64,000 bases of DNA from positions 15,316,440-15,380,439 of the forward strand of contig CP136061.1 of assembly GCA_032622095.1 (NCBI GenBank). Direction: 5' to 3'. Position numbers and translations under genes: made by a program. The DNA comes from Siphonodentalium dalli. Taxonomy: Eukaryota > Mollusca > Scaphopoda > Gadilida > Siphonodentaliidae. Of this stretch, positions 2,998 to 64,000 are shown one piece after another (positions within the stretch are counted from its first letter, which is position 1; each line of letters begins with the position of its first letter). The notes below the pieces were generated by a model. The model was given only the letters and a program-made list of their open reading frames with translations. It had not been told where the DNA came from and made no database searches.

Positions 2998-3251
2998 CAA
3001 GCCTTGAAATAGGGTGTCTGTCATTTGCAGAATGAGGTCCCCAGAGGGTGAATTTAGTAATGCTACCCTGCATAGCGGGCTAGCATCACCAAATTCACCC
3101 TCTGGGGACCTCATTCTGCTGAGGTGTAAGCAGAATGAGGTCCCCAGAGGGTGAATTTGGTGATGCTAGCCCACTATGCGGGGTAGCATCACTAAATTCA
3201 CCCTCTGGGGACCTCATTCTGCAAATGACAGACACCATATTTCAAGGCTTG
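2998..3251. mobile_element. hAT-like MITE (family D), full double-palindrome copy
   Basis: The ends are CAAGCCTTGAAATAG and CTATTTCAAGGCTTG (the right one reads CCATATTTCAAGGCTTG). The element is two hairpins in a row joined by GAGGTGTAAG. It contains four alternately inverted copies of a segment of about 50 bp with CAGAATGAGGTCCCCAGAGG. The target duplication is unclear for this copy but is exact in the copies at 31388, 36314 and 49114. Confidence 0.75.
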
Positions 3252-26506: not shown

Positions 26507-27001
26507 ATGTACATAACTATAAATTTCAAAATTAACCCTTTTGAAAACTCGCGGCCTATGCTTACGTTCCTAATTTCAAAAATTGTAACACCTAACTATG
26601 TACCACGCTCCCATCTTTTACTGAAACTACCGATATGGGACAATCATGAAACTAAAGAATATTTTAATACTCTACGTATAACTAGTTCATTTATGATAGT
26701 GCGTGATTCTACGATACTGGTACGCATACTCTGTCATAGGTATACCTATATTTTCCAAATTTCAAAACACCAGGCATACCTCTATTATGCTCCTGTTTTT
26801 AATTTTACTGACTATGGAATTGTCCAAGTGGTGCTTCGGAATGTGTACCTAGATAATGATCACCTCTGTCCATGTTACCGAAGACATGTTTACCCTTGTA
26901 TTCTGTGGTGTTCCCAGCCCCCCCAGGATCTCTATATTTTACAACAATATAGGATACAGTCCGAGACAATGCTAACCCCCAACCAACCAAGATTAAAGTG
27001 A
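26507..27001 (+). CDS. Frame of unknown function running into the satellite
   Basis: This is a 164-codon frame starting MYITINFKINPFENSRPMLT. Its last 17 or so codons are satellite sequence, so the stop is not its own. The protein is rich in Ile, Tyr and Phe, and no domain is recognised. It is probably the 3' part of the element or a chance frame. Confidence 0.2.
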   Translation: MYITINFKINPFENSRPMLTFLISKIVTPNYVPRSHLLLKLPIWDNHETKEYFNTLRITSSFMIVRDSTILVRILCHRYTYIFQISKHQAYLYYAPVFNFTDYGIVQVVLRNVYLDNDHLCPCYRRHVYPCILWCSQPPQDLYILQQYRIQSETMLTPNQPRLK

Positions 27002-31387: not shown

Positions 31388-31641
31388 CAACCCTTGAAAT
31401 AGGGTGTCTGTCATTTGCATAATGAGGTCCCCAGAGGGTGAATTTAGTGATGCTACCCCGCATTGTGGGCTAGCATCACCAAATTCACCCTCTGGGAACC
31501 TCATTCTGCCGAGGTGTAAGCAGAATGAGGTCCCCAGAGGGTGAATTTGGTGATGCTAGCCCGCTATGCGGGGTAGCATCACTAAATTCACCCTTTGGGG
31601 ACCTCATTCTGCAAATGACAGACACTCTATTTCAAGGCTTG
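31388..31641. mobile_element. hAT-like MITE (family D), full double-palindrome copy
   Basis: The ends are CAACCCTTGAAATAG and CTATTTCAAGGCTTG. It is flanked by an exact 8-bp target duplication ACTGTAAA (31380-31387 and 31642-31649). It has four alternately inverted copies of the AATGAGGTCCCCAGAGGG segment. Confidence 0.85.
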
Positions 31642-38087: not shown

Positions 38088-38196
38088 AGCTGATGCAGCA
38101 AATTTGACGGCAGCTCAGATCTGAGATAGCTGATGCAGCAAATTTAACGGCAACTCAGATCCGAGATAGCTGATGCAGCAGATTTGACGGTAGAAT
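38088..38196. repeat. Three tandem copies of a 38-bp unit
   Basis: AGCTGATGCAGCAAATTTGA followed by CGGCAGCTCAGATCTGAGAT is repeated three times with small changes. Confidence 0.8.
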
Positions 38197-38332
38197 GGCT
38201 TCGAGCTTCTCGAGGATGTAACTGATAGGAAGATATATCCAGTTCAAGAACTGAAACAAAATAAACAAATAGAGATTAAACGGACATGGCTAATTTAAAC
38301 ATTAGTAGGTTAGTAAGAGTTAGTAGGGAAAT

Positions 38333-39639: not shown

Positions 39640-40850
39640 TATGTGTTCTACCCTATCAATGTGTTCTACCCTATCAATGTGTTCTACCCTATCAATGTGT
39701 TCTACCCTATCAATGTGTTCTACCGTATCAATGTGTTCTACCCTATCAATGCGGTACATATTGTTTATCTACACACCGTTACATCTTATGTTTTCTACCC
39801 TATCAATGCGGTACATAATGTTTATCTACATACCGTTACATCTTATGCTTTCTACCCTATCAATGTGTTCTACCCTATCAATGCGGTACATAATGTTTAT
39901 CTACACACCGTTACATCTTATGCTTTCTACCCTATCAATGTGTTCTACCCTATCAATGCAGTACATATTGTTTATCTACATACCGTTACATCTTATGCTT
40001 TCTACCCTATCAATGTGTTCTACCCTATCAATGCGGTACATAATGTTTATCTACACACCGTTACATCTTATGCTTTCTACCCTATCAATGTGTTCTACCC
40101 TATCAATGCAGTACATAATGTTTATCTACATACCGTTACATCTTATGCTTTCTACCCTATCAATGTGTTCTACCCTATCAATGCGGTACATAATGTTTAT
40201 CTACACACCGTTACATCTTATGCTTTCTACCCTATCAATGTGTTCTACCCTATCAATGCAGTACATATTGTTTATCTACATACCGTTACATCTTATGCTT
40301 TCTACCCTATCAATGTGTTCTACCTTATCAATGCAGTACATAATGTTTATCTACATACCGTTACATCTTATGCTTTCTACCCTATCAATGTGTTCTACCC
40401 TATCAATGCGGTACATAATGTTTATCTACACACCGTTACATCTTATGCTTTCTACCCTATCAATGTGTTCTACCCTATCAATGCAGTACATATTGTTTAT
40501 CTACATACCGTTACATCTTATGCTTTCTACCCTATCAATGTGTTCTACCCTATCAATGCGGTACATAATGTTTATCTACACACCGTTACATCTTATGCTT
40601 TCTACCCTATCAATGTGTTCTACCCTATCAATGCAGTACATAATGTTTATCTACATACCGTTACATCTTATGTTTTCTACCCCATCACTGCGTTCTACCC
40701 TATCAATGCGGTACATAATGTTTATCTACACACCGTTACATCTTATGTTTTCTACCCTATTATATTGTTTATCTGCATACCAATGTTATCTACCCTATCG
40801 ATGCGGTACATATTGTTTATCTACATACCATTTTGGTGACAATGCCCATT
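39640..40850. repeat. About 90-bp tandem array in the intron after ST7 exon 42262-42401
   Basis: The unit is TTCTACCCTATCAATG (1-2 times) + GCGGTACATAATGTTTATCT + ACACACCGTTACATCTTATG, about 13 copies. It starts with six short TCTACCCTATCAATGTGT repeats. On the minus strand each unit contains AACG-GT(G/A)TGTAGATAAAC, matching the exon-end-derived sequence at 42057 (AACG-GTATGTAGATAAAC). The array closes at 40806-40855 with TTTTGGTGACAATGCCCATT, another exon-end copy. Two long plus frames (426 and 414 codons) are by-products of the 90-bp period. Confidence 0.85.
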
Positions 40851-41032
40851 GGTAATGATGGTGGTGCGTTTAAAAATGGATGTTGATTTGCTTGGGTTCC
40901 AAAGAGTATGGATGCAAGTTGGTTTGACAAGAAAATGTCAGGCCATCTGGCATCCATACTATGTGAAACGCAACAAAATCAACATCGCATCTACACAAAA
41001 ATGGAAGCAAGTAGGGGTCATCGTGTGATGTC

Positions 41033-41969: not shown

Positions 41970-42240
41970 GGTACGTACCGTTTTGGTGACAATTCCCATC
42001 GATTATTACGTCTATCATATCATGCTAGCTATAGATACATATTGTTTATCTACATACCGTTGTTTGGCAACAATGCCCATTGTTATGATGGTGATACATA
42101 CTGTTTGGAGACAATGCTTATTGTTATGGTGGTACATACCGTTTTGGCGACAATGACCATTGATATGACGGTGGTAAATACCGTTTGGCGATGATGCCCA
42201 TTAGTATGGTCGTACATACTGTTTTGGTGACAATGCCCAT
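41970..42240 (-). repeat. Tandem copies of the ST7 exon 42262-42401 end with its 5' splice site
   Basis: On the minus strand ATGGGCATTGT(T/C)(G/A)CCAAAAC(G/A)-GTATGTAC recurs about every 40 bp. Donor-like GT follows the repeated exon end at 42219, 42181, 42139, 42101, 42057 and 41978 (the real donor is at 42261). The first copy is 42 nt away and in frame; later copies have drifted. See the findings. Confidence 0.85.
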
Positions 42241-42261
42241 TGTTATGATAGCGGTACGTAC

Positions 42262-42401
42262 CGTTTTGGCAACAATGCCCATTGGTTCTGGATACTGATG
42301 TGTGAGGAGAGCAAGAAGAGCAGTAAATGAACACAATCCAGCAGTGAACAGAATAAAGAAAGGTAACTCCTTCTTGGGGTAAACCGATACCTCATGGAAT
42401 G
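42262..42401 (-). CDS. ST7: ST7 family protein, exon coding [15 protein letters not shown]... (sixth in window)
   Basis: The exon is 140 nt. The acceptor is TCTCTATTTCAG at 42402 and the donor ACG-GTACGT at 42261. It completes a Ser codon (T from the upstream exon + CA), then encodes 46 residues from [18 protein letters not shown] to [14 protein letters not shown] and ends in phase 0. The hydrophobic run [19 protein letters not shown] is the family's C-terminal membrane segment. Compared with the vertebrate protein as I know it, nearly every position is conserved. The next vertebrate exon codes a short C-terminal tail, which I could not find in the window. Both borders of this exon are duplicated into the flanking introns. 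Confidence 0.9.
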
Positions 42402-42402
42402 C

Positions 42403-42482
42403 TGAAATAGAGAGTATAAAGAATGACAAATCTTTCTTAGGGTAAACAATTACCTCGTGAAATGCTGTAATAGTGATTATAC
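42403..42482 (-). pseudogene. Duplicate of the ST7 exon 5' half with its own acceptor
   Basis: On the minus strand TATTACAG at 42465 is followed by 63 nt that translate [20 protein letters not shown] and run without a stop into the true exon at 42401. It corresponds residue for residue to [20 protein letters not shown]. The offset is 63 nt, so use of the upstream acceptor would keep the frame and repeat 21 residues. It may be an alternative exon part or a decaying duplicate. Confidence 0.75.
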
Positions 42483-42489
42483 TTACAGG

Positions 42490-43255
42490 AAAAAGTGACG
42501 ATTAAGGCGACTTTGTGGTTTTAACTCAAAATTACACCTAATAATATTTGTTTTTATATATTTCTGGGCACAAAAATAGGTTGAGTCTGGTTGACAGATA
42601 CTTGAAACACTAAAAATCCCACAAAGACAATATTGAACGACACCCAAGAATGTGCGGTTGTCTCTGAAATTTTTTGTGAAGTGGTGTAAAATGTACTGAA
42701 TGAAATGGTGTCGTGCAATAAAACAGGAAAGTGAATCCTAATTTTACAGATTAGATTTTCATCTGAATCTATTTAAGAAAACTCATGCAGTTTGCCGGAC
42801 ACAACTCCGAAACGATACCAAATTTACAAAAAAACGTAAGAAACAAAACACATTTTTCAGTGCTATATTTAGAGTTCATTTAGATTCCTCTTACCAAATT
42901 ACATGTTCATAATTTTGTGATTTGACCGAGCCATGTTTGTTTAATTATCTTGCAATTTGGGGTAATTTTATGAGAATATAGTCTGTATATAGGTATTTCA
43001 TGTATTTATCCACCTATTTTCATGAGCACCAGAGGAGAGCAGGGCAGCAGGGGGCAACTGCCACTAATGCCTCCCACAAGGGGGGGGGGGGGGGGGGTCA
43101 GGGTGTACAAGTGCCCTGTCATCCTTTGTGTAATGGCAAGAATTACCCCATTATCAGCAGGCGTTTATGCCAGTACCTCGGACTGAAAACAATGCCTTTC
43201 TTGCAGTCCAGCCCTCTTGCCACCGGCACCCCTGCTTGTTTTCATTCTTAGAATG
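42490..43255. other. Intronic sequence (ST7), no feature apart from a poly-G tract
   Basis: A run of about 18 G lies at 43080-43098. The 83-codon plus frame at 43000-43251 overlaps the G tract and has no recognisable content. Confidence 0.4.
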
Positions 43256-43261
43256 TGACAT

Positions 43262-44400
43262 AATAAGTCCATTTAACCCTTTCTATAATAAATACTCATT
43301 GACAAGTCGTTATCCCTTAGGAAATGTTCAGATAATAAGTTAACCCTTTCTATAATAAATACTCATTGACAAGTCGTTATCCCTTAGGAAATGTTCAGAT
43401 AATAAGTTAACCCTTTCTATAATAAATACTCATTGACAAGTCGTTATCCCTTAGGAAATGTTCAGATAATAAGTTAACCCTTTCTATAATAAATACTCAT
43501 TGACAAGTCGTTATCCCTTAGAAAATGTTCAGATAATAAGTTAACCCTTTCTATAATAAATACTCATTGACAAGTCGTTATCCCTTAGGAAATGTTCAGA
43601 TAATAAGTTAACCCTTTCTATAATAAATACTCATTGACAAGTCGTTATCCCTTAGGAAATGTTCAGATAATAAGTTAACCCTTTCTATAATAAATACTCA
43701 TTGACAAGTCGTTATCCCTTAGGAAATGTTCAGATAATAAGTTAACCCTTTCTATAATAAATACTCATTGACAAGTCGTTATCCCTTAGGAAATGTTCAG
43801 ATAATAAGTTAACCCTTTCTATAATAAATACTCATTGACAAGTCGTTATCCCTTAGGAAATGTTCAGATAATAAGTTAACCCTTTCTATAATAAATACTC
43901 ATTGACAAGTCGTTATCCCTTAGGAAATGTTCAGATAATAAGTTAACCCTTACTATAATAAATACTCATTGACAAGTCGTTATCCCTTAGGAAATGTTCA
44001 GATAATAAGTTAACCCTTTCTATAATAAATACTCATTGACAAGTCGTTATCCCTTAGGAAATGTTCAGATAATAAGTTAACCCTTTCTATAATAAATACT
44101 CATTGACAAGTCGTTATCCCTTAGGAAATGTTCAGATAATAAGTTAACCCTTACTATAATAAATACTCATTGACAAGTCGTTATCCCTTAGGAAATGTTC
44201 AGATAATAAGTTAACCCTTTCTATAATAAATACTCATTGACAAGTCGTTATCCCTTAGGAAATGTTCAGATAATAAGTTAACCCTTACTATAATAAATAC
44301 TCATTGACAAGTCGTTATCCCTTAGGAAATGTTCAGATAATAAGTTAACCCTTTCTATAATAAATACTCATTGACAAGTCGTTATCCCTTAGGAAATGTT
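43262..44400 (-). repeat. 67-bp satellite, about 17 copies, inside an ST7 intron
   Basis: On the plus strand the unit is GTTAACCCTTTCTATAATAA + ATACTCATTGACAAGTCGTT + ATCCCTTAGGAAATGTTCAG + ATAATAA. Read on the minus strand it is the same monomer as the array at 57776-64000 (TTATTATCTGAACATTTCCT ... AAAGGGTTAAC). Copies are almost identical; only CTTTC/CTTAC and one GAAAATG variant occur. Confidence 0.95.
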
Positions 44401-44875
44401 GTTTGTTGAACATTTCTTGTTGAACATTTCCTTCCAATAATTATGATTCCTTCTGCACTTTTATTATCTGTCGTCTGCTTATTTTTTCCTGAAAACCCCT
44501 CCAGATGAATAATAGACCATTCCGATGTATACTTCTATAACTGAGTTGGAGAATCCATTTAGAATAGAAAGTGCAAGGAGTAATACGGTCAGATATAGCA
44601 CTAATAGTCAAATACAAAACTGAACATGGGAGCTGATGTGAGGTGCATAAACATTGTTATATATCACATCTAGCATATTTATGCATAAAATCACTGCGGC
44701 TTCAACAGCATAATCAAGTCACGATTAAAGCATAGAATAAAACATGTTTAATAACGTGATGCCATCAACATGAAACGGAGGTAATAAATACAATCGGGAA
44801 GCCGTTTGTAGTATTGGATTGTATCAATAACAGTCATTAATAATTAATCAATAACGGTCATTAATAATTAATCAA
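44401..44875. other. ST7 intron, dispersed-repeat remnants
   Basis: It contains a family J-like stretch (AATAATAGACCATTCCGATG at about 44505, as at 7630), and ATCAATAAC(A/G)GTCATTAATA twice near 44830-44870. No coding exon is recognised. Confidence 0.4.
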
Positions 44876-45445
44876 AGTCTAGACTGCAGATTTTCACAGG
44901 TCTCGTGGAAGTACCTCTATATTCACCGTCCCCGGGGAAGCCAGGAAATCACAGTAATAAACATGTACCCAGTCTAAGCCGTAAGTTATCACAGGTCTCG
45001 TGTGAAAGTACCGATTGTATTCACTGACAACTGAAAAGCTGAGAAATCACATTATAACCATTTACACAGTCTAAGCTGTAAGTTATCACAGGTCTCGTGT
45101 GAAAGTACCGATTGTATTCATTGACAACGGGGAAGCTGAGAAATCACATTAATAACCATGTAACCAGTCTAAGCCGTAAGTTATCACAGGTCTCGTGTGA
45201 AAGTACCATCTGTATTCACCGTCCCCATGTACCCAGTCTAAGCTGTAAGTTATCACAGGTCTCCTGTGAAATTACCATCTGTATTCACTGACAACCGGAA
45301 ATCTGAGAAATCACATTAATAAACATGTACCCAGTCTAAGCTGTAAGTTTCACAGGTCTTGGGTGGAAGTACCGTCTGTATTCACCATCCCCGGGGAAGC
45401 CAGGAAATTAACCATGTACCCAGTCTAAGCTGTAAGTGCCTCAGG
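44876..45445. repeat. About 100-115-bp imperfect tandem repeat, six copies
   Basis: The landmarks CAGTCTAAGC(T/C)GTAAGTTATC, ACAGGTCTCGTGTGAAAGTA and GAAATCACATTAATAA(C)CAT recur in order about six times, with deletions in some copies. Confidence 0.8.
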
Positions 45446-45544
45446 TGGTGTCTGGTATTATATTGTCTCTATGGGGATTGTAAGTCGTATCAGCCTTGAA
45501 TGATATTATTTGGGCTTCTGGGAGACCCAGTCTTATTTCCAATG

Positions 45545-46007
45545 TTAACCCTTTACCCAACAAACCGGCCAAAAACGCCCAAATAAAGCTTCAACAGCCT
45601 AAAATATCTTCGGTCTGTCTCAATAACACCATACAAATATGGATATCATTGGAACCGGTTCATTGACCACATTGTGATGGTTACAGTTATGACCTGTGCC
45701 AATGCATTCTCTTATATATGCAAGTCGACCATAGGTCGCCTCGCATATATAAGAGAATGCATTGGCCTAAAAAAAATCTTTTTTTAACACTTTTTACCAT
45801 TTTTTCTTGCATTCTTTAACAATTTTGTAATTTTTTCTTACATTTTTTAACAATTTTTATAATATTTTTCTACATTCTTTGACAATTTTATCATTTTTAA
45901 TATGTTAAGCCAATGCATTCTCTTATATATGCGAGGCGACCTATGGTCGACTCGCATATATAAGAGAATGCATTGGCACAGGGCCGTTCTGTTGGGTAAA
46001 GGGTTAA
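45545..46007. mobile_element. piggyBac-like MITE (variant B'), complete, inverted relative to 8163-8552
   Basis: It has TTAACCCTTTACCCAACAAA ... TGTTGGGTAAAGGGTTAA. Two GCATTCTCTTATATATGC hairpins are separated by an ATTTTTTAACAATTTT-type spacer with three tandem versions. The subterminal GATATCATTGGAACCGGTTC is shared with 8163-8552. Confidence 0.85.
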
Positions 46008-46010
46008 ACC

Positions 46011-46310
46011 TGTGGTAGGGACCTGACTGGAGATATTTTGTTCTAAGTCTTAAGTGACTTCTCTCCCATATCCCTGTAGTATGTTTGAAGTATATTTACT
46101 GATTATAATCGTGTTCTTACTGATTATAATGGTGTTCATACTGATTATAATCGTGTTCTTACTGATTATAATCGTGTTCTTACTAACTATAGTGGTTTTA
46201 TAAATGAGCTCTTGTGTTGCATGATTAAATAATAGAGAGCTGATGTTGGGGTGTAAACTGAACTTCAGCCATTGTTGCTTCTCTCTCATAACAGTTCACT
46301 TCTCCCTATT
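46011..46310. repeat. Dispersed repeat (family I) with 21-bp tandem part
   Basis: ACTGATTATAATCGTGTTCTT is repeated five times at 46097-46190. This is followed by GCTCTTGTGTTGCAT ... GATGTTGGGGTGTAAACTGA, which also occurs at 51480-51735. Confidence 0.65.
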
Positions 46311-47030
46311 AAAGGGACCGGGCGGTCTTCATTGTAGGTTATAATTTAGAAATAACATTTATCAAATTATTATAATTTCCTCAAGAATATACCAATAGTA
46401 TAGCATAATGATGATATGGATGTGATATTATTCACAAAACACACTTTGTGTCAGAGAAAATGTAGGTTGAGCGTTGTTTAGTTTCTAGCAAAAAGTGCAG
46501 TGAATTGTTTATAAGGAGAGTCATGATATTGCATCATTTCCTTATATGAATTCACGCGCATTATACGTCAGTTGTAAAACCCCTAATTTGGTGCGTCTAC
46601 AACTTACAACTCACAGTAAATTCCTTACTTGGTATGTATTACCAAATATATGTTATGTCAAAATACCAAATGGATTGAAAAATATTCATCTCTTTGCAAG
46701 AACAATTATATTATGTACACATTTTCTGTCTGATCATTTCCCAATCATGAAGTAACGTGGATTAGCTGGATTTTGAACTAACAGCAGGTAAAATTGGTCG
46801 ATTAAAATAAAATTTGGCGTGATTTGAATGCGATTGTTGATTGCGCAATAATTTTATCTTATTTTCATTGGACGATCTAGTCGTTCCGAGTGTTTGCCTA
46901 TAAACAAATGGTCAGTAACGTTTTTGATGTTTGTTTACATCACGAAGCATACATACGTGACAATAAGATGCAATCTACACAATATTTATGATTTGTATAA
47001 GAACAACATATATCCTTCGTGAAGTGAATA
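46311..47030. other. ST7 intron, dispersed-repeat fragment only
   Basis: 46873-47010 (CTAGTCGTTCCGAGTGTTTG ... TGACAATAA ... TTGTATAAGAACA) matches 55870-56010. A 69-codon plus frame at 46546 has no recognisable content. Confidence 0.35.
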
Positions 47031-47041
47031 AACAAACTTAC

Positions 47042-47134
47042 AAGGTAGCAGTTCTCTGTCGGCGTTCTCTGTGCATGTGGGATAAGGATAAAACAGATGT
47101 CCCTTCTCTAGTGGATACGGGATCATTCTAAATG
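47042..47134 (-). CDS. ST7: ST7 family protein, exon coding [18 protein letters not shown]... (fifth in window)
   Basis: The exon is 93 nt, with acceptor TTATTTCAG at 47135 and donor CTT-GTAAGT at 47041. With the preceding A it completes Thr (A+CA), then encodes 30 residues from [12 protein letters not shown] to [11 protein letters not shown] and leaves T for the next Ser codon. The segment is among the most conserved of the family. Unlike its neighbours, neither border of this exon shows a duplicated copy. Confidence 0.92.
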
Positions 47135-47213
47135 CTGAAATAAATAACAAGAGGTGTTTACTACACATTAGTTTATTACACACTAAGCCGTGAATTATAT
47201 AGAGGATCTCACA

Positions 47214-47350
47214 TGAGTTTCTATTTTATACGGAATTTATCAACCGAGTTCACTAAATTCGATTTGAGCTGAGGTTTACCGAGGCTCAAATAGAATTTAG
47301 TGGACGAGGTTGATAAATTACGTATAAAATATGACGAGTGTGAGATACTT
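47214..47350. repeat. Palindromic element in an ST7 intron
   Basis: ATTTTATACGGAATTTATCA with ACCGAGTTCACTAAATTC faces GAATTTAGTGGACGAGGTTG with ATAAATTACGTATAAAAT. The outer parts are CTCACATGAG / CGAGTGTGAG. It is MITE-like and of unknown family. Confidence 0.55.
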
Positions 47351-48000
47351 TTTATCACATGATCAAAAAAACGCGAAGCAATGCGAAATATCCATCGAAA
47401 ACAACGATAATAAATTGCAGCGATCGCAAGTCATTTGAAGAACGATGTGACGTCATCGCACGCGCTGATATTAAACGTGTCTCTTATCGATAATTATGAA
47501 ACTGCTTTTATGGGCAAATTATGTGATAAAAGTATTTCTTGGTGAATTAAGTGATAATGTCACACCTGCGAATTAAGTTCCAACGAATTTTGATAGCTCA
47601 GATAGCCCCACCCCAAGACTTAATATTTTTTGTCATGTATATACGAAGTGCTTGATTTGAATCAGACCAAAGTGAATCGTTACATCACAAATATTTAACT
47701 GGTTGGGGTTCAAAATGGAAGATTCAGCTGATGGGGACTATTTCTTCACATACTAACTTTAGAATTAGCGCCTTTGAGTGGTGGAAAGTGCATAATAAAC
47801 AGAATAATCAATTGGTTTTGATGATTACTAGTACGTGAAATATTCACCAGGTACCAAACAGGAAATTTTGCGGATGCAATAAATATGTCACCTGGACAAG
47901 TAAATCAGTTGCTTGGAGTTTGTTTTTTTCCGTAACAAGTTATTAGCAAGGGACAGAGTGCCATTCCATATCTTTTCAAGGAAGGGAAAATAATTCCATG
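47351..48000. other. ST7 intron, no feature seen
   Basis: No exon-like segment or repeat was recognised. GTGATAA(A)-type short motifs only. Confidence 0.4.
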
Positions 48001-48497
48001 GCATTTGCATTGCGTTGAGGCATATACTTACTTCTGTCCCATGTACAGAGAAATAGATGCCACTTTAATCAGACAGGGAGGGAGATAGATGGGAGGGGTG
48101 GGAGAGGAGATGAGTGGGGGTGGGAGAGGAGATGAGTGGGGGTGGGAGGGGAGATGGGTGGGTGTGGTACATGTACTTACTTCCTTCCCATGTACAGTGT
48201 AAGAGATTCGGGGCTCCTTCTACCCGCTTTAATCAGACAGGGAGGGAGAGGAGATGAGTGGGGGTGGGAGGGGAGATGGGTGGGGAGGGGAGATGGGTGG
48301 GGGTGGTACATGTACTTACTTCCTTCCCATGTACAGTGTAAGAGATTCGGGGCTCCTTCTACCCGCTTTAATCAGACAGGGAGGGAGAGGAGATGAGTGG
48401 GGGTGGGAGGGGAGATGGGTGGGGAGGGGAGATGGGGTGGGAGAGGAGATGAGTGGGGGTGGGAGGGGAGATGGGTGGGTGTGGTACATGTACTTAC
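48001..48497 (-). repeat. Tandem copies of the ST7 exon 48498-48648 end plus intron start
   Basis: On the minus strand the exon end (GGTAGAAGGAGCCC ... CTGTACATGGGAAGGAA) with donor GTAAGTACATGTACC and a CCCACCCATCTCC-rich spacer recurs at donor positions 48319 and 48180. A shorter copy has its donor at 48031; the real donor is at 48497. The plus strand of the spacer is strongly G-rich (GGGTGGGAGGGGAGATGGGT). Confidence 0.88.
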
Positions 48498-48648
48498 TTC
48501 CTTCCCATGTACAGTGTAAGAGATTCAGGGCTCCTTCTACCCGTTTCCAATGCGGCAGATGGAAGAACGCATACGCCACAGCTTCACTGTCGCCGCGCTT
48601 TAATATGTGTTCTGGAGGAAGTATGAGACACTTCATTTCTAAAAGATA
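48498..48648 (-). CDS. ST7: ST7 family protein, exon coding [19 protein letters not shown]... (fourth in window)
   Basis: The exon is 151 nt, with acceptor TTTCTTCAG at 48649 and donor GGAA-GTAAGT at 48497. It starts in phase 0 and encodes 50 residues: [40 protein letters not shown] and [10 protein letters not shown]. It leaves one A that forms Thr with the next exon. It corresponds to a highly conserved helical repeat-like stretch of the family. Its 3' end is copied downstream (48001-48497). A 25-bp piece of its 5' end (TCTTTTAGAAATGAA) is copied upstream at about 48699-48727 without a usable acceptor. Confidence 0.92.
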
Positions 48649-48892
48649 CTGAAGAAAAAAACACATCATGCTTTAGTAAATTTTTTGGACGTAGAATGAA
48701 ACATTTCATTTCTAAAAGATGTGAATTGAATGATATACACATTATGTTACTGACAAGTACTTTAAGGCATAAAATTAGGTTAATGTGAGGCCATCAGCCT
48801 CAAGTGCTATCCTTTTAGAATAAGCTATCAGACAGTTACATACATGTGTAGTTCTTTGTTAAATGCACGCACAACCGTCATCTTGTAACTGA

Positions 48893-49025
48893 TTATTTCT
48901 GAGGAATTGTTCCACATTATTTCTGATTTTTCTGAGGAATTGTTCCACATTATTTCTGATTTTTCTGAGGAATTGTTCCACATTATTTCTGATTTTTCTG
49001 AGGAATTGTTCCACATTATTTCTGA
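48893..49025. repeat. Four tandem copies of a 33-bp unit
   Basis: TTTCTGAGGAATTGTTCCAC + ATTATTTCTGATT is repeated exactly. The inner AGGAATTGTTCCAC is close to palindromic. Confidence 0.9.
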
Positions 49026-49113
49026 CCTTGTCATATATGATGATACTGTTACCTTAAAGTTGCAGTTTCAATGTAGATGTGAACATAATTTAGTGTTGTG
49101 TGACGTCAATAGT

Positions 49114-49366
49114 CAAGCCTTGAAATAGTGTGTCAGTCATTTGCAAAATGAGGTCCCCAGAGGGTGAATTTAGTGATGCTACCCTGTATAGTGGGCTAGC
49201 ATCACCAAATTCACCCTCTGGGAACCTCATTCTGCTGAGGTGTAAGCAGAATGAGATCCACAGAGGGTGAATTTGGTGATGCTAGCCCGCTATGCGGGGT
49301 AGCATCACTAAATTCACCCTCTGTGGATCTCATTCTGCAAATGACAGTCACACATTTCAAGGCTTG
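49114..49366. mobile_element. hAT-like MITE (family D), full double-palindrome copy in an ST7 intron
   Basis: It has CAAGCCTTGAAATAGTGTGT ... CACATTTCAAGGCTTG with an exact 8-bp target duplication TCAATAGT (49106-49113 and 49367-49374). Four alternately inverted segments are present; the two right-hand ones share the changes GATCCACAGAGG / CTGTGGATC. Confidence 0.9.
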
Positions 49367-49543
49367 TCAATAGTGTTCATTCCACACATATGTGCAAACA
49401 GCTTGAATAAAATGACATGGGCTGGGCTGAGGAACTACGTTTTTTTAAGTAATAAAGTGAAGATACAACACACACTCCTCTACTAAATAACTTATAGGAT
49501 ACTCAAATTTCCCTAATGTTATTGTTTGCGTTGATTGGCTCCA

Positions 49544-50032
49544 TTAACCCTTTCAGTGCCAGGGGCCGATCTCATCGGCACTAATTTACGGTCTGTAAAA
49601 TGGGCCCTAAAAATATTTAAAATATTTGTTTGTGTTTTTTTTTAGATTTTTGTTTTTTGTTTGGGTTTAATATTTTTTGGGTATGCTTAAGCATGCTATA
49701 GCGAATTTAAAAACAATCTGGTTAAAACCTTAGGGGCATGTTATAACTCAAAACTATCACCAAGTATTCATAGTAATAATTTTGATGCCCATGAAAAACG
49801 TAAGATTCCCTGGCACAAAACCTACACAATAAGTCTGGCACTGAAAGAGAGTAGAATATAAGAAAAAATTATTAAAATTGTAAAAAATAATAACAAATGA
49901 TGAAAAATTGTTAGGCCAATGCATTCTCTTATATATGCGAGGCGACCTATGGTCGACTCGCATATAAAAGAGAATGCATTGGCACAGGTTATATGGGTTG
50001 ATACAAATCGGACCTGGCACTGAAAGGGTTAA
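49544..50032. mobile_element. piggyBac-like MITE (variant B'')
   Basis: It has TTAACCCTTTCAGTGCCAGG ... CCTGGCACTGAAAGGGTTAA. One GCATTCTCTTATATATGCGA hairpin lies near the right end, while the left two thirds is unrelated to B or B' (GGGCCGATCTCATCGGCACT, ATTTTTTGGGTATGCTTAAG). A fragment of its end is at 56116-56165. Confidence 0.8.
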
Positions 50033-50599
50033 AACATTTACTTGAGCTGCCTTTTTGAGAGGCATTATTTCATTGGCGTATAGCCGTCATGTGACCGCGT
50101 TAGCATTCACGTGACTGCAAAAGCTCAGTCACGTGATGTTTACATCGTTCTAAATTTAACTGCATAACAACAACACACCGGTGATCATGCGTTAAAGTAC
50201 TCGTCGTGAATGCAAAAATAATTTTACTTCATAAATATCCTTTATGCTCTAACTCCCGATTGATGGTCCGATGAATTTATTTCTCCTCTGGTTGTTAATA
50301 GTCCAGCCTTGATAAGCATGGAATATTCTATTACATAATAATTATTACAATTGTAATTTAGAGGTTCTGAATGAATAAAACCTTGCTGATACATTGATGT
50401 TACCCATTTGTGGGTGTAAACTGCCACTATGGCTGAAATTTATAGATGGTCTATAAAATGTCAGCGATACACCCACAGAAAATAGGAGTTAAGAGCATTA
50501 ATAACTAGTTACTCACTGATTGAAAGAATGTTCAGTTGATAAGTTCAACAAACCTATATGTTTTTTTTTTTTTTAAAGAGGTGGTATAATTACAGGGTA

Positions 50600-50684
50600 T
50601 TATGACTAACCTTTGGTACATGTGTATTATAGGGTATTATGACTAACCTTTGGTACATGTGTATTATAGGATATTATGACTAAC
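50600..50684 (-). repeat. Tandem copies of the ST7 exon 50685-50787 end with its 5' splice site
   Basis: On the minus strand CACATGTACCAAAG-GTTAGTCATAATA recurs with a 37-bp period. The real donor is at 50684 and copies are at 50647 and 50610. Each unit contains 14 nt of exon end plus about 23 nt of intron. Confidence 0.88.
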
Positions 50685-50787
50685 CTTTGGTACATGTGGA
50701 TTGAATTCGACAGCTCTGTGTATTGCTTCCACTGCTGTCATCTCTGCTGTACTTAAACCCCGCTTACTCGCAGCGTCTGGTGAAAAT
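50685..50787 (-). CDS. ST7: ST7 family protein, exon coding [19 protein letters not shown]... (third in window)
   Basis: The exon is 103 nt, with acceptor CTCCCTTCAG at 50788 and donor AAAG-GTTAGT at 50684. Its first base completes Lys (AA+A). It then encodes 34 residues, [20 protein letters not shown] followed by [14 protein letters not shown], and ends in phase 0. The [14 protein letters not shown] part is a tetratricopeptide-like helix conserved from invertebrates to vertebrates in this family. A decoy acceptor (CTCCAG-ATTTTCACACC) lies 28 nt upstream at 50816 and copies the exon start. Confidence 0.92.
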
Positions 50788-50835
50788 CTGAAGGGAGGAA
50801 ATTCGGTGTGAAAATCTGGAGAAGGCCAGAAACTT

Positions 50836-51160
50836 AATGTTTATATAATAAAACAGGTAACGGTCACAAGGTTCATAATGTTTATATAATAAAACAGGTA
50901 ACGGTCACAAGGTTCATAATGTTTATATATTATAACAGGTAACGGTCACAAGGTTCATAATGTTTATATATTAACACAGGTAACGGTCACAAGGTTCATA
51001 ATGTTTATATATTAAAACAGGTAACGGTCACAAGGTTCATAATGTTTATATATTAAAACAGGTAACGGTCACAAGGTTCATAATGTTTACATATTAACAC
51101 AGGTAACGGTCACAAGGTTCATAATGTTTATATATTAACACAGGTAACGGTCACAAGGTT
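50836..51160. repeat. 41-bp tandem array, eight copies
   Basis: The unit is AATGTTTATATA(A/T)TAAAACA + GGTAACGGTCACAAGGTTCAT, with TAAAACA/TTAACACA variants. It lies in the ST7 intron upstream of the exon at 50685. Confidence 0.9.
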
Positions 51161-51225
51161 CGCTTAGTGTCAGCATAGGGCAAACGAAATAAGGTAGCAA
51201 TCCGAAATCTTTCAATCTTTCTTCA

Positions 51226-51378
51226 GACCAGAGACCAGCCTAGAGGGCAACTTGAGAGACAGGGACCAGCCTAGAAGGCGACTTGAGACAGGGACCAGCC
51301 TAGAGGGCGACTTCAGAGACAGGGACCAGCCTAGAAGGCGACTTGAGACAGGGACCAGCCTAGAGGGCGACTTGAGTG
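51226..51378. repeat. Five tandem copies of a 29-31-bp unit
   Basis: GAGACAGGGACCAGCCTAGA + (G/A)GGCGACTT is repeated. The last copy leads into the family I dispersed repeat. Confidence 0.85.
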
Positions 51379-51735
51379 ACATCTCCCTAAAATGTTCTAT
51401 TTTTGTCCCAGGGAGAAGTCACTTCTCTCATATACCAGTATGCATATGACCCAGAATCATGTTTATAAATATTTACTGATTATATTGGTGTTCTTACTCA
51501 CTATAGCGGTTTTACAAATGGGCTCTTGTGATGCATATTACTTATTAATGGATCATAGAAGGGTGATGTTGGGTGTAAATGAGCTCTTGTGTTGCATAAT
51601 AATTAATGGATCATAGAAGGGTGATGTTGGGGTGTAAATGGGTTCTTGTGTTGCATAATAATTAATGGATCATAGAAGGGTGATGTTGGGGTGTAAACTG
51701 AACTTCAGCCATTACTTCTCCCTGATAACACAACA
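51379..51735. repeat. Dispersed repeat (family I) with about 60-bp tandem part
   Basis: ATACCAGTATGCATATG ... ACTCACTATAGCGG, then three copies of GATGTTGGGGTGTAAATGGG ... TAATGGATCATAGAAGGGT (51510-51690), ending GTAAACTGAACTTCAGCCATT as at 46265. Confidence 0.7.
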
Positions 51736-51767
51736 CAAGTATGCACACTAGTCCACCCGTCATTTAC

Positions 51768-51895
51768 ACCTCAGCAGAATGAGGTCCCCAGAGGGTGAAT
51801 TTGGTGATGCTAGCCCGCTAAGCGGGGTAGCATCACTAAATTCACCCTCTGGGGACCTCATTCTGCAAATGACAGACACCCTATTTCAAGGCTTG
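51768..51895. mobile_element. hAT-like MITE (family D), right half
   Basis: It runs from the central ACACCTCAGCAGAATGAGGT to CTATTTCAAGGCTTG and ends 25 bp downstream of an ST7 donor site. The left hairpin is missing. Confidence 0.75.
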
Positions 51896-51920
51896 TGAAC
51901 ATCCATCTACTATAACATAC

Positions 51921-51993
51921 TTGTCTGCCACCGCTCTGGCTTTGAGAAGCGCTGCAGTGTAACATATTGTAGCTGACTTTGGCAAGCTGATGT
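51921..51993 (-). CDS. ST7: ST7 family protein, exon coding [19 protein letters not shown]... (second in window)
   Basis: The exon is 73 nt, with acceptor CTATTTTCAG at 51994 and donor ACAA-GTATGT at 51920. With the G left by the upstream exon it completes Asp. It encodes [18 protein letters not shown] and RAVAD and leaves AA for Lys. Conservation with the vertebrate protein is near complete across these residues. No duplicated border was found next to this exon; a family D half-element sits in the intron 25 bp after the donor. Confidence 0.92.
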
Positions 51994-52299
51994 CTGAAAA
52001 TAGAAAAATTCCGAAATGCATCAATGTTGTGGCAGTCATTCTGAGAGGTGACAACAAAATGGGAAATTGTATAACAACACTTATGATACTGATTCTAAAA
52101 AAATTTGGGACAAAAGGAGCAGTCCGAGGATAATTAGAGATAATCATTGATACGTAGACATTCTATTCAAGCTGTCGTGGTCAATTAGAGACGCAGAAGG
52201 TCAGACATGCCACAATCCTCGTAACCAAGTCTCAAATGATCTCAGATTTTACTCCTCATTTCCGTCATGATAATCAAATTGGCTTAAAGTAGTCCGTAT

Positions 52300-52475
52300 A
52301 AAGACCAACTTTAACTTAGGAACTTCAATCTGATCCTACATGTAGGTTTCTCATAACAATTGAGGCCTAAGCAGAATCAGTTCACCAGAGAGCGAATTTG
52401 GTGATGCTAGCCCACCGTGCGGAATAGTTAAAATTCACCCTCTGGGGACCTCATTCTGCAAATGTCAAACACATT
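52300..52475 (-). repeat. Fragment of the 10-15 kb complex repeat / family D hairpin
   Basis: AACTTCAATCTGATCC ... GGCCTAAGCAGAATCAGTTC, followed by CTCTGGGGACCTCATTCTGC and AAATGTCAAACACATT, corresponds to the complement of 10296-10460. Confidence 0.55.
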
Positions 52476-52485
52476 AAATCCATTC

Positions 52486-54212
52486 TTGCTTGTATAATTC
52501 CTGTATCTCGAATAGTACGACATAATATCATATTTAGCAAGTACTGCTTGCTTATAATGCCTGTATTTCTAATAGTGCCACTTACCATCGTATTTAGCGA
52601 GGACTGCCTGCTTATAATGCCTGTATTTCTAATAGTGCCACTTACCATCTTATTTAGTGAGGACAGCTTGCTAATAATGCCTGTATTTCTAATAGTGCCA
52701 CTTACCATCGTATTTAGCGAGGACAGCTTGCTTATAATGCCTGTATTTCTAATAGTGCCACTTACCATCGTATTTAGCGAGGACAGCTTGCTAATAATGC
52801 CTGTATTTCTAATAGTGCCACTTACCATCGTATTTAGCAAGGACAGCTTGCTAATAATGCCTGTATTTCTAATAGTGCCACTTACCATCGTATTTAGCGA
52901 GGACAGCTTGCTAATAATGCCTGTATTTCTAATAGTGCCACTTACCATCGTATTTAGCGAGGACAGCTTGCTAATAATGCCTGTATTTCTAATAGTGCCA
53001 CTTACCATCGTATTTAGCAAGGACAGCTTGCTAATAATGCCTGTATTTCTAATAGTGCCACTTACCATCGTATTTAGCGAGGACAGCTTGCTAATAATGC
53101 CTGTATTTCTAATAGTGCCACTTACCATCGTATTTAGCGAGGACAGCTTGCTAATAATGCCTGTATTTCTAATAGTGCCACTTACCATCGTATTTAGCGA
53201 GGACAGCTTGCTAATAATGCCTGTATTTCTAATAGTGCCACTTACCATCGTATTTAGCGAGGACAGCTTGCTAATAATGCCTGTATTTCTAATAGTGCCA
53301 CTTACCATCGTATTTAGCGAGGACAGCTTGCTTATAATGCCTGTATTTCTAATAGTGCCACTTACCATCGTATTTAGCGAGGACAGCTTGCTAATAATGC
53401 CTGTATTTCTAAAAGTGCCACTTACCATCGTATTTAGCGAGGACAGCTTGCTAATAATGCCTGTATTTCTAATAGTGCCACTTACCATCGTATTTAGCAA
53501 GGACAGCTTGCTAATAATGCCTGTATTTCTAATAGTGCCACTTACCATCGTATTTAGCGAGGACAGCTTGCTAATAATGCCTGTATTTCTAATAGTGCCA
53601 CTTACCATCGTATTTAGCGAGGACAGCTTGCTAATAATGCCTGTATTTCTAATAGTGCCACTTACCATCGTATTTAGCGAGGACAGCTTGCTAATAATGC
53701 CTGTATTTCTAATAGTGCCACTTACCATCGTATTTAGCGAGGACAGCTTGCTAATAATGCCTGTATTTCTAATAGTGCCACTTACCACCGTATTTAGCGA
53801 GGACAGCTTGCTTATAATGCCTGTATTTCTAATAGTGCCACTTACCATCGTATTTAGCGAGGACAGCTTGCTAATAATGCCTGTATTTCTAATAGTGCCA
53901 CTTACCATCGTATTTAGCGAGGACAGCTTGCTAATAATGCCTGTATTTCTAATAGTGCCACTTACCATCGTATTTAGCGAGGACAGCTTGCTAATAATGC
54001 CTGTATTTCTAATAGTGCCACTTACCATCGTATTTAGCGAGGACAGCTTGCTAATAATGCCTGTATTTCTAATAGTGCCACTTACCATCGTATTTAGCGA
54101 GGACAGCTTGCTAATAATGCCTGTATTTCTAATAGTGCCACTTACCATCGTATTTAGCGAGTACTGCTTGCTAATAATGCCTGTACATTGTATTTCTAAT
54201 AGTGCCACTTAC
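52486..54212 (-). repeat. 60-bp minisatellite made of an ST7 exon end and its 5' splice site
   Basis: On the minus strand the unit is GTAAGTGGCACTATTAGAAA + TACAGGCATTATTAGCAAGC + TGTCCTCGCTAAATACGATG. The last 17 nt (CTCGCTAAATACGATG and one more) equal the end of the exon at 54213-54327, TATTAGAAATACAGGCA equals another part of that exon, and GTAAGTGGCACTATTAGAAA equals its intron start. 27 copies keep a donor (two with a change next to it), plus one worn copy at 52486-52560. The unit length is a multiple of three, which keeps both strands open (585 and 558 codons), but neither frame is the exon's frame. Confidence 0.95.
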
Positions 54213-54327
54213 CATCGTATTTAGCGAGTACTGCTTGCACATCTGCATATGCCTGTATTTCTAATAAAGCTTCTATTAAATTTTCATGGATGTTGAAGAG
54301 ATTCATCATTGGAAATTCTTTCATAAG
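54213..54327 (-). CDS. ST7: ST7 family protein, exon coding [19 protein letters not shown]... (first in window)
   Basis: The exon is 115 nt, with acceptor TTTTTTTTCAG at 54328 and donor GATG-GTAAGT at 54212. It starts in phase 0 and encodes 38 residues, [20 protein letters not shown] then [18 protein letters not shown], leaving G for Asp. It is homologous to the middle-to-C-terminal part of vertebrate ST7, a multi-pass membrane protein with tetratricopeptide-like helices whose biochemical role is not settled. The upstream exons, including the N-terminal membrane segments, are not recognisable to the right of this point within the window. Its donor region seeded the adjacent 60-bp array. Confidence 0.92.
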
Positions 54328-57775: not shown

Positions 57776-60700
57776 CGTTGAACATATTTATCTGAACAAG
57801 GTACTCGTAAATGAGTATTTATTAAATAAAGGGTTAAACTTATAAGTTATTATCTGAACACTTCCTAAGAGAACTACTCATCAATGAGTATTTAGTAATG
57901 AAAGGGTTTTAACTTATTATCTGAACACTTCCTAAGGGATCTACTCATCAATGAGTATTTAGTAATGAAAGTGTTTTAACTTATTATCTGAACTCTTCCT
58001 AAGGGAACTACTCATCGATGAGTATTCAGTAAAGAAATGGTTAAACTTATTATTTGAACATTTCCCATGGGATAACTACTCATCAATGATGCTTTAGTAT
58101 AGAAAGGGTTAAACTTATTATCTGAACATTTCCCATGGGATAAATACTCATCAATGATACTTTAGTATAGAAAGGGTTAAACTTATTATCTGAACATTCC
58201 CATGGGATAACTACTCATCAATGATACTTTAGTATAGAAAGGGTTAAACTTATTATCTGAACTTTTCTTTGGGATAAATACTCATCAATGAGTATTTAGT
58301 AATGAAAGGGTTTTAACTTATTATCTGAACTCTTCCTAAGGGAACTACTCATCAATGAGTATTTACTAATGAAAGGGTTTTAACTTATTATCTGAACATT
58401 TCCTAAGGTAACTACACATCAATGAGTATTTAGTAAAGAAAGGGTTAAACTTATTATCAGAACATTTCCTAAGGTAACTACTCATCAATGAGTATTTAGT
58501 AAAGAAATGGTTAAACTTATTATCTGAACATTTCCCATGGGATAACTACTCATCAATGATACTTTTGTATAGAAAGGATTAAACTTATTATCTGAACATA
58601 TCCTATATGATAACTATTCATCAATGATGCACTAGTATAGAAAGGGTTAAACATATTATATGAACATTTCCTAAGAGATAACTGCTCATCAATGATACTT
58701 TAGTATAGAAAGGGTTAAACTTATGATCTGAACATTTCTTACGGGATAAATACTCATCAATGAGTATTAATAGTAATGAAAGGGTTTTAACTTATTATCT
58801 GAACACTTCCTAAGAGAACTAGTCATCAATGAATATTTAGTAATGAAAGGGTTTTAACTTATTATCTGAACACTTCCTAAGAGAACTACTCATCAATGAA
58901 TATTTAGTAATGAAAGGTTTTTAACTTATTATCTAACATTTCCTAAGAGAACTACTCATCAATGAGTATTTAGTCTACTCATCAATGAGTATTTAGTAAT
59001 GAAAGGGTTTTAACTTATTATCTAACATTTCCTAAGGGAACTACACATCAATGAGTATTTAGTAATGAAAGGGTTTTAACTTATTATCTGAACTCTTCCT
59101 AAGGGAACTACTCATCAATGAGTATTTAGTAATGAAAGGGTTTTAACTTATTATCTGAACTCTTCCTAAGGGAACTACTCATCAATGAGTATTTAGTAAT
59201 GAAAGGGTTTTAACTTATTATCTGAACATTTCCTAAGGTAACTACACATCAATGAGTATTTAGTAAAGAAAGGGTTAAACTTATTATCAGAACATTTCCT
59301 AAGGTAACTACTCATCAATGAGTATTTAGTAAAGAAATGGTTAAACTTATTATCTGAACATTTCCCATGGGATAACTACTCATCAATGATACTTTTGTAT
59401 AGAAAGGATTAAACTTATTATCTGAACATATCCTATATGATAACTATTCATCAATGATGCACTAGTATAGAAAGGGTTAAACATATTATCTGAACATTTC
59501 CTAAGAGATAACTGCTCATCAATGATACTTTAGTATAGAAAGGGTTAAACTTATGATCTGAACATTTCTTACGGGATAAATACTCATCAATGAGTATTAA
59601 TAGTAATGAAAGGGTTTTAACTTATTATCTGAACACTTCCTAAGAGAACTAGTCATCAATGAATATTTAGTAATGAAAGGGTTTTAACTTATTATCTGAA
59701 CACTTCCTAAGAGAACTAATCATCAATGAATATTTAGTAATGAAAGGTTTTTAACTTATTATCTAACATTTCCTAAGAGAACTACTCATCAATGAGTATT
59801 TAGTCTACTCATCAATGAGTATTTAGTAATGAAAGGGTTTTAACTTATTATCTAACATTTCCTAAGGGAACTACACATCAATGAGTATTTAGTAATGAAA
59901 GGGTTTTAACTTATTATCTGAACTCTTCCTAAGGGAACTACTCATCAATGAGTATTTAGTAATGAAAGGGTTTTAACTTATTATCTGAACATTTCCTAAG
60001 GTAACTACACATCAATGAGTATTTAGTAAAGAAAGGGTTAAACTTATTATCAGAACATTTCCTAAGGTAACTACTCATCAATGAGTATTTAGTAAAGAAA
60101 TGGTTAAACTTATTATCTGAACATTTCCCATGGGATAACTACTCATCAATGATACTTTTGTATAGAAAGGATTAAACTTATTATCTGAACATATCCTATA
60201 TGATAACTATTCATCAATGATGCACTAGTATAGAAAGGGTTAAACATATTATCTGAACATTTCCTAAGAGATAACTGCTCATCAATGATACTTTAGTATA
60301 GAAAGGGTTAAACTTATGATCTGAACATTTCTTACGGGATAAATACTCATCAATGAGTATTAATAGTAATGAAAGGGTTTTAACTTATTATCTGAACACT
60401 TCCTAAGAGAACTAGTCATCAATGAATATTTAGTAATGAAAGGGTTTTAACTTATTATCTGAACACTTCCTAAGAGAACTACTCATCAATGAATATTTAG
60501 TAATGAAAGGTTTTTAACTTATTATCTAACATTTCCTAAGAGAACTACTCATCAATGAGTATTTAGTCTACTCATCAATGAGTATTTAGTAATGAAAGGG
60601 TTTTAACTTATTATCTAACATTTCCTAAGGGAACTACACATCAATGAGTATTAAGTAATGAAAGGGTTTTAACTTATTATCTGAACTCTTCCTAATGGAA

Positions 60701-63700: not shown

Positions 63701-64000
63701 TTAAACTTATTGTCTGAACATTTCTTATGGGATAAATACTCATCAATGAGTATTTAGTATAGAAAGGGTTTAACTTATAATCTGAACATTTCCTATATGA
63801 TAACTACTCATCAATGATACTTTAGTATAGAAAGGGTTAAACTTATTATCTGAACATTTCTTATGGGATAAATACTCATCAATGAGTATTTAGTAATGAA
63901 AGGGTTAAACTTATTATCTGAACTCTTCCTAAGGGAACTACTCATCAATGAATATTTAGTAATGAAAGGGTTTTAACTTATTATCTGAACATTTCCTAAG
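57776..64000 (+). repeat. 67-bp satellite array with higher-order structure, running off the window
   Basis: The unit is AACTTATTATCTGAACATTT + CCTAAGGGAACTACTCATCA + ATGAGTATTTAGTAATGAAA + GGGTTTT, over 90 copies. Between 58.4 and 62.0 kb variant monomers recur as a block. The marker TCCTAAGG(T/G)AACTACACATC before AGTAAAGAAAGGG is at 58401, 59231, 59994, 60824 and 61587, so spacing alternates 830 and 763 bp. From 62.1 to 63.5 kb a simpler two-type pattern (with or without GA in ATCTGAACATT) dominates. It is the inverted relative of the array at 43262-44400. Confidence 0.95.

Follow-up and report, generated by a model that had tools for sequence, protein, structure and literature searches.

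Minisatellites overlapping exon borders of the ST7 gene in the scaphopod Siphonodentalium dalli

Border copies in the ST7 gene

In the scaphopod Siphonodentalium dalli, several borders of the ST7 gene are overlapped by tandem arrays, which we regard, with a probability of roughly three in four, as minisatellites born independently in array-dense introns and tolerated because the exon-proximal splice site stays intact. The analysed DNA, called here the window, is a stretch of 64,000 nucleotides (GenBank assembly GCA_032622095.1, contig CP136061.1, positions 15,316,440 to 15,380,439); the coordinates given below are positions within it, and all the features described lie on its reverse strand.

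The gene was identified as animal ST7 by its match to Pfam PF04184, a match that the predicted peptide joined over exons a to g sustains without a break from profile position 279 to 533. These exons are a (54213..54327), b (51921..51993), c (50685..50787), d (48498..48648), e (47042..47134), f (42262..42401) and g (38155..38250, the coding part up to the stop codon), the last being a seventh exon, additional to the six of the sequence-only reading. The start adopted for exon f is the second copy of a 63-bp unit, the copy that lies inside the Pfam match, with an alternative start at 42464; its acceptor was placed at 42464 in the coverage counts and at 42401 in the array-counted tests. Six more ST7 exons are found upstream of the window. 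A splice-site matrix served to place the borders, and some calls are surely wrong; array units and copy numbers are those given by TRF on one assembly.

For each border, 50 nt were locally aligned to the 300 nt of flank beyond it and the result was set against 500 dinucleotide shuffles. Tandem copies of the 3' end and donor occur at exons a, c, d and f (0/500 shuffles as good in each case), and exons b and e have none (301/500 and 294/500, respectively). Upstream copies of the 5' end were detected at exons c, d and f, again with 0/500 shuffles each, and none at a, b and e in the same 300-nt flank. Thus, the earlier description, which from the letters alone had counted 3'-end copies at four of six exons and 5'-end copies at three, two of them keeping an acceptor, is borne out.

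The largest array follows exon a, whose own 3' end and donor (ATG/GTAAGT) are repeated in a 60-bp minisatellite (52494..54238) of 29 copies by TRF, 98% identical throughout, the GT being kept in 27 of the 28 copies matched to the border window. Open reading frames of 585 and 598 aa that run through it were interpreted as a side effect of its stop-free 60-nt period. The end and donor of exon c are repeated in a 37-bp array (50589..50702, 3.1 copies), and 13 of 14 nt of its start recur upstream (50808..50821) with the AG kept, a short match with a score of 23, the shuffles reaching 20 at most. Three matched copies of the end and donor of exon d lie in 48096..48497, which comprises an array of 139-bp units (48096-48441, 2.4 copies) and the stretch reaching the exon; the upstream copy of its start (48683..48720, 32/38 nt) has no acceptor AG at the junction. 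Exon f is flanked on both sides, by a 42-bp array (42051..42284) of 5.7 diverged copies of its end and donor, and by an upstream 63-bp copy of its acceptor and start (42402..42481, x2.0 by TRF), which, measured from 42401, matches in 37 of 46 nt, keeps the acceptor, is in frame, and would add 21 aa if its own acceptor were used. Further into the intron, a 75-bp array of 13 copies with adjoining pieces (39641..40870) includes 14 sites of the form ACG/GTATGT or ACG/GTGTGT; judging by eye from sequence common to 40801-40870 and 42030-42100, this region may descend from the donor copies of exon f. Finally, a 40-bp array (38088..38190, 2.6 copies) covers the last codons of exon g, the stop codon and 3' flank.

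The unit lengths (60, 37, 139, 42 and 63 bp by TRF) are unrelated, as previously remarked, which points to several events and not to a single one. The ST7 introns are array-dense, since 1387 of 2971 points (47%) meet the copy criterion. Among the ST7 exons upstream of the window, none of the 10 scored borders has a copy of at least 22/30; one donor there has a 20/30 copy, located on the exon side. Hence the proposal that borders are amplified at most exons of the gene stands for the part in the window and fails for the gene as a whole.

The donor copies continue unbroken across the exon-intron junction. They therefore look like DNA duplications, minisatellites whose first unit overlaps the border, and an RNA-mediated duplication from spliced RNA is ruled out. 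Intron gain by tandem duplication was likewise discarded, as no new intron is seen and the copies are intronic, the exons on either side forming one uninterrupted match to profile positions 279-533.

Exon borders compared with intron points

A control sample of 154 exons was taken from the 246 matches listed (ST7 6/12, dynein 82/96, CCT 42/53, myosin 24/85), the remaining six ST7 rows lying in the window; copies lacking introns and close paralogs were excluded, as were additional rows for myosin and CCT, and 261 of the 308 possible borders passed the score and distance filters. When points are simply counted (coverage), copies occur at 12/261 of these borders, at 1800/23681 intron points (7.6%) and at 20/3055 points inside exons (0.7%); the expectation from the 300-nt intron flank is 20.4 for the 261 borders. 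Matched by locus and with the ST7 borders of the window included, 17/273 borders have copies against 24.7 expected, the ST7 part contributing 5/12 against 4.3. Taken as the sole null, coverage suggested a depletion at borders. It is, however, too generous, because any of the n copies of an array may contain a random intron point, and a border can be located in none but the terminal one.

With each array counted once, a weak excess appears instead: 16 against 12.2 expected at a cut-off of 20 (P 0.15), 12 against 7.6 at 22 (P 0.07), 9 against 5.1 at 24 (P 0.07), 7 against 3.3 at 26/30 (P 0.047), 7 against 2.5 at 27/30 (P 0.015), 4 against 2.1 at 28/30 and 3 against 1.6 at 29/30, where the P values assume independent borders and several cut-offs were tried. 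By local alignment, the 261 borders yield 15 events where 10.7 (P 0.11) or 9.1 (P 0.035) are expected; the exact Poisson limits for 15 events (8.4-24.7) make ratios from about 0.8 to 2.7 compatible. The ST7 part in the window, counted in the same way, reaches 6/12 borders against 1.46 expected (P 0.001), for a gene that was picked for its pattern. The 44 gene clusters of the sample show no overdispersion among them, which marks ST7 as an outlier.

The array-counted distance profile has no clear peak at the border. The border bins (acceptor 34/766, donor 29/797) are slightly above those of the next 15-100 nt, the first of which hold 16/509 and 15/642, and below the intron bins at 105-160 nt. 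Nor does the border occupy a fixed place within the copy, the ratio of exon part to offset ranging from 0.07 to 0.88 over 21 events, some of whose offsets are unit multiples and some of whose alignments stop at the edge of the segment compared. The genome itself is array-rich: the copy criterion is met at 599 of 4384 points in 16 random 2-kb pieces, a few of which supply most, and at 530/1874, 364/1874 and 377/1574 points in three pieces inside CCT genes. Two paralog pairs were examined; in one, 99.3% identical over the alignment, a border copy is missing from one member owing to a 21-nt insertion or deletion, and in the other the copy is kept in both.

Taken together, the 261 borders show at most a weak excess, and slower divergence of exons could produce an excess of this kind. 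The idea that exon-intron borders are a target of duplication finds no clear support, given the absence of excess by coverage, the weakness of the array-counted excess, and the lack of both a clear peak and a fixed border place. The sequence-only reading had staked its recurring border process on such a scan: borders are no richer than random points by coverage, the outcome it had named as contrary to the process, whereas the array-counted comparison leaves some room for it.

Origin of the arrays and alternative readings

In the reading that we prefer, independent tandem duplications of DNA in the array-dense ST7 introns would have generated minisatellites, certain founder units of which happened to overlap an exon border. 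A duplication spanning a donor would leave an intact donor adjoining the exon and place the spare exon end and donor in the intron, while one at an acceptor would leave the spare copy upstream of the exon. As long as splicing takes the exon-proximal site, a choice of site that we infer, the protein would be unchanged, and border arrays would for this reason escape the kind of selection that purges duplications inside exons; they could then expand into the intron, presumably by slippage or unequal exchange.

Splice borders might alternatively be places where tandem duplication is mildly favoured, for instance by R-loops, by polymerase that is paused or bound by U1, or by stalled replication, and border-crossing founders would then be commoner than founders elsewhere in introns. 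This is unlikely on present evidence, even though the array-counted excess of about 1.3-1.8 fold was obtained on borders chosen irrespective of the pattern, reaches 2.8 fold at one cut-off, 27/30, and is accompanied by the strong ST7 figure and by border bins exceeding the next intron bin. Against it stand main-test P values of 0.035-0.11 with several cut-offs tried, the wide span of ratios (about 0.8 to 2.7) that 15 events allow, the lack of excess by coverage, the higher bins deeper in the intron and the variable place of the border in the copy; moreover, the exon half of a border copy would diverge more slowly and stay detectable longer, predicting a spurious excess. If true, this reading would imply recurrence at half of the scored ST7 borders in the window, introns filled with dozens of spare donors, and a birth of minisatellites tied to splicing or transcription. 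Isoforms are another matter, compatible with our preferred explanation and in themselves rather improbable: alternative forms of ST7 could arise through use of donors in the arrays or of the acceptor that precedes exon f by 63 nt. The upstream exon-f copy is in frame with its acceptor kept, and 9 of the 12 differences between the two copies in the first 51 nt fall at codon position 3. Nevertheless, such a codon bias is partly expected if constraint acts on the real copy alone, the 37- and 139-bp units are not divisible by three, translation of exon a continued beyond its donor runs into a stop codon after GKWHY, and the Pfam match is continuous with the second exon-f copy as start, the scan having covered this shorter form.

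We consider it very improbable that the extra donors are held by selection as decoys, binding U1 so as to protect introns from premature polyadenylation or to tune splicing. Donor-like sites of at least 6 bits are certainly abundant in intron a-b (29, against 3 on the opposite strand) and in intron f-g (18 against 6), the 75-bp array has its 14 sites (39776-40733) at 7.2-7.6 bits, and GT is kept in 27/28 copies of the a array and 4/4 of the f array; yet intron e-f has 8 such sites against 9 on the opposite strand, exons b and e go without copies, and, given its uniform 98% identity, the a array keeps GT no better than the remainder of its unit. Array L043 retains GT in 5/9 copies, and the 42-bp array has weakened donors in 3/5 (two at 3.3 bits, one, GTATTT, below 3). 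The GT excess in donor copies at 10 donor borders gives P 0.045 by resampling and 0.13 in a rank test, not clearly above the intron controls, so that the selection for U1-binding decoys proposed earlier does not gain ground; acceptors have no excess at 8 borders (P 0.43 and 0.51, respectively). Constraint on the real border alone would also improve the match of its copies at the splice site. Conservation of GT or AG was therefore set aside as a sign of decoy selection, being inseparable from this constraint, and central columns match best in the controls too.

Similar arrays in human genes

Known systems offer close parallels, described here as far as the cited accounts present them. Intron 7 of human F7 (IVS7) contains a variable number of near-identical 37-bp repeats, the real donor lying in the first, and according to a review that cites Borensztajn 2006, oriented scanning selects the most upstream of these donors exclusively (PMC6627357). 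In both genes the exon-proximal unit overlaps the exon end and the donor (in ST7 at exons a, c, d and f), and later array units in ST7 introns carry donor-like sites of the F7 intron 7 kind. F7 is described with one such border, whereas in ST7 four donors and two or three exon starts are involved and an array can reach 29 copies; for F7 the choice of the first donor is a reported result, for ST7 an assumption. In human IFI6 (6-16), a minisatellite is said to provide several donor sites in the transcript (PMC4526556, citing Turri 1995), its downstream units acting as donors of several mRNAs, while in ST7, known from DNA, several of the units would disrupt the reading frame.

For human genes that lie in segmental duplications, De Grassi and Ciccarelli (2009) reported internal tandem repeats situated at the boundaries of exons and introns (PMC2812944). 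Minisatellite expansion at these boundaries is thus shared with ST7, theirs emerging from a scan of many genes; the repeats they present vary from one paralog to another and have been connected with novel introns, whereas no alteration of the exon structure is seen in ST7, and the comparison of borders with intron points is made in the present study. Tandem duplications that copy splice signals are also described in ATP2A1 and in potato RdRp, the latter across one intron-exon boundary (PMC4974935), but those of ST7 lie inside introns between exons and have made no new intron. Among the matches listed, titles and the beginnings of abstracts describe no comparison of border duplications with intron points, subscription papers being mostly outside this search.

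Significance

Most likely, ST7 is an unusually rich case of the border-overlapping minisatellites already known in human genes. A caution follows for similar findings: duplicated borders seen in one gene rich in repeats argue only weakly for a splicing-linked mutational process as long as each array has not been entered once and set against the introns nearby. What the genome brings out is the extent to which splicing appears to tolerate these arrays: 15 of the 261 scored borders (5.7%) have a tandem self-copy within the adjacent 300 nt of flank, and downstream of exon a its end and donor recur in 28 matched copies. This genome would provide a ready-made natural series in which to study the spliceosome's choice between identical donors.

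Splice-border copies in ST7

The minus-strand gene is ST7 (PF04184), and in the searched genome (2.23 Gb, nine contigs) its 12 exon matches fall on contig 1 only, six of them inside the window. Joined together, the peptide of exons a-g matches PF04184 profile positions 279-533 in a single stretch (E 5e-149), and exon g (38250-38155) is an addition to the exons described in the sequence-only reading.

The duplications which that reading reported at the borders of this gene are real. Nearby copies exist for the donors of exons a (54327-54213), c (50787-50685), d (48648-48498) and f (42401, or 42464, to 42262), i.e., four of six, and for the 5′ ends of c (only 14 nt), d and f, three of six; for neither set were any of 500 shuffles as good. 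Unit lengths are 60, 37, 139, 42 and 63 bp. The donor copies cross the exon-intron junction without a break, with an aligned exon part of 54 nt in a (first offset 67 nt), 18 nt in c (offset 37), 49 nt in d and 23 nt in f. The 5′-end copy of exon d has lost its AG; at 42402-42481, a 63-nt in-frame copy of the acceptor and start of exon f retains the acceptor. Over the first 51 nt it differs from the second copy at 12 positions, nine of them at codon position 3, so this upstream copy may be translated, adding 21 residues. A 40-bp array at 38088-38190 spans the last codons, in exon g, and the stop, duplicating both into the 3′ flank; because an intact end remains, the logic of the border copies also applies where the coding sequence ends.

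A tandem duplication at a donor would keep the exon intact, provided that the proximal donor is used. For F7 intron 7, with its 37-bp repeats, a review describes oriented scanning in which only the most upstream donor is used (PMC6627357), and we infer that ST7 would obey the same rule. In exon a, the first spare donor, if used, adds 67 nt, and reading through the exon's own donor leads to a stop codon once GKWHY has been added. Two paralog pairs were compared: in one (99.3% identity) the border copy is missing from one paralog through a 21-nt indel, and in the other both paralogs carry it.

Other repeats were also observed. An inverted-repeat element (GCAGAATGAGGTCCCCAGAGGGTGAATTT...), MITE-like by its shape, recurs at 3027-3222, 31417-31612, 49143-49338 and about 51770-51870 (by eye and in TRF rows). 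Large 65-bp minisatellites occupy 18491-22963 (67 copies) and 26947-28639 (26 copies). Related 67-bp minisatellites on opposite strands (local score 138 in reverse complement vs 15 on the same strand) flank the ST7 window exons on both sides, at 43273-44400 and 57847-64000, the latter reaching the window end.

Are borders preferred?

The duplications had been proposed to reflect a recurring process, linked perhaps to splicing or replication. As a control, 154 exons were fetched from dynein, CCT, myosin and upstream ST7, and borders were called on them (261 in the sample). Open frames of 738-1553 aa enclose several of the myosin exon matches (contig positions C4:223733926, C3:221201302, C4:274514179 and others in the searched genome, G000); these may be arrays that cross the exon edge and whose period is a multiple of three.

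By coverage (30-nt window, at least 22 matches within 300 nt), 6/128 acceptors and 6/133 donors of the sample pass, as do 1800/23681 intron points and 20/3055 exon-interior points. Among points in the window's ST7 introns, 1387/2971 pass, or 941/2517 once border-anchored arrays are set aside, and in 16 random genome pieces 599/4384 pass the copy criterion, mostly from a few pieces. With the 300-nt intron flank as a locus-matched null, 17 among 273 borders pass vs 24.7 expected (sample alone, 12 vs 20.4; window borders alone, 5 vs 4.3).

Because only the terminal unit of an array can hold a border, a stricter null was also used, of intron points that have a copy to one side alone. Thus counted, the sample (n = 261) gives 16 vs 12.2 expected at cut-off 20 (P 0.15), 12 vs 7.6 at 22 (P 0.07) and 9 vs 5.1 at 24 (P 0.07), and over these three cut-offs the window gives 5/12 borders vs 1.2-1.5 (P 0.003-0.009). 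When closer matches are required, the sample gives 7 vs 3.3 at 26/30 (P 0.047), 7 vs 2.5 at 27 (P 0.015), 4 vs 2.1 at 28 and 3 vs 1.6 at 29. Local alignment across the junction finds 15 in the sample, where one cut-off leads to an expectation of 10.7 (P 0.11) and another to 9.1 (P 0.035), and 6/12 in the window vs 1.46 (P 0.001). By coverage no border enrichment is seen; when arrays are counted, there is a weak, cut-off-dependent excess. This excess can be inflated, as the exon half of a border copy would diverge one-sidedly and stay detectable longer, and the examination of several cut-offs may push it further upward. Array-counted frequencies at donors run 29/797 (bin -15 to +10), 15/642, 23/773, 37/776 and, from +105, 55/778; at acceptors, 34/766 at the border, 16/509, 8/747, 19/741 and, from 105, 43/739. 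This is a small local rise over the following 15-100 nt, yet values are higher deeper in the intron, and we do not call it a peak.

The suggestion that copies are selected as U1-binding decoys could draw on the donor-like sites (at least 6 bits), which number 29 vs 3 on the other strand in intron a-b (b, 51993-51921) and 18 vs 6 in f-g; these are dense because the arrays copy them, and intron e-f (e, 47134-47042) is not dense (8 vs 9). GT is retained in 27/28 copies at a, 4/4 at f and 5/9 at a CCT locus of the sample (L043). In donor copies its excess amounts to 0.132, compared with 0.035 in intron controls (resampling P 0.045, rank test P 0.13); acceptor copies show none (0.066 vs 0.047; P 0.43, 0.51). 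Together, these values give no evidence for such selection.

ST7 as a rich example

The 15 sample events divide into dynein 8/139, CCT 6/70, myosin 1/42 and upstream ST7 0/10, and the 44 gene clusters of the sample show no overdispersion. Six of 12 borders would have a probability of about 3e-5 under the sample fit, or 7e-3 given a correlation of 0.1. Among 20,000 genes of such size, a round number, about 0.6 to 140 would then be expected at 6/12. ST7 was, moreover, singled out for its pattern, and its part in the window is also dense in arrays. That borders are targets of duplication is unproven and the less likely reading; most likely, the mechanism is an ordinary one, of which ST7 constitutes an unusually rich example.
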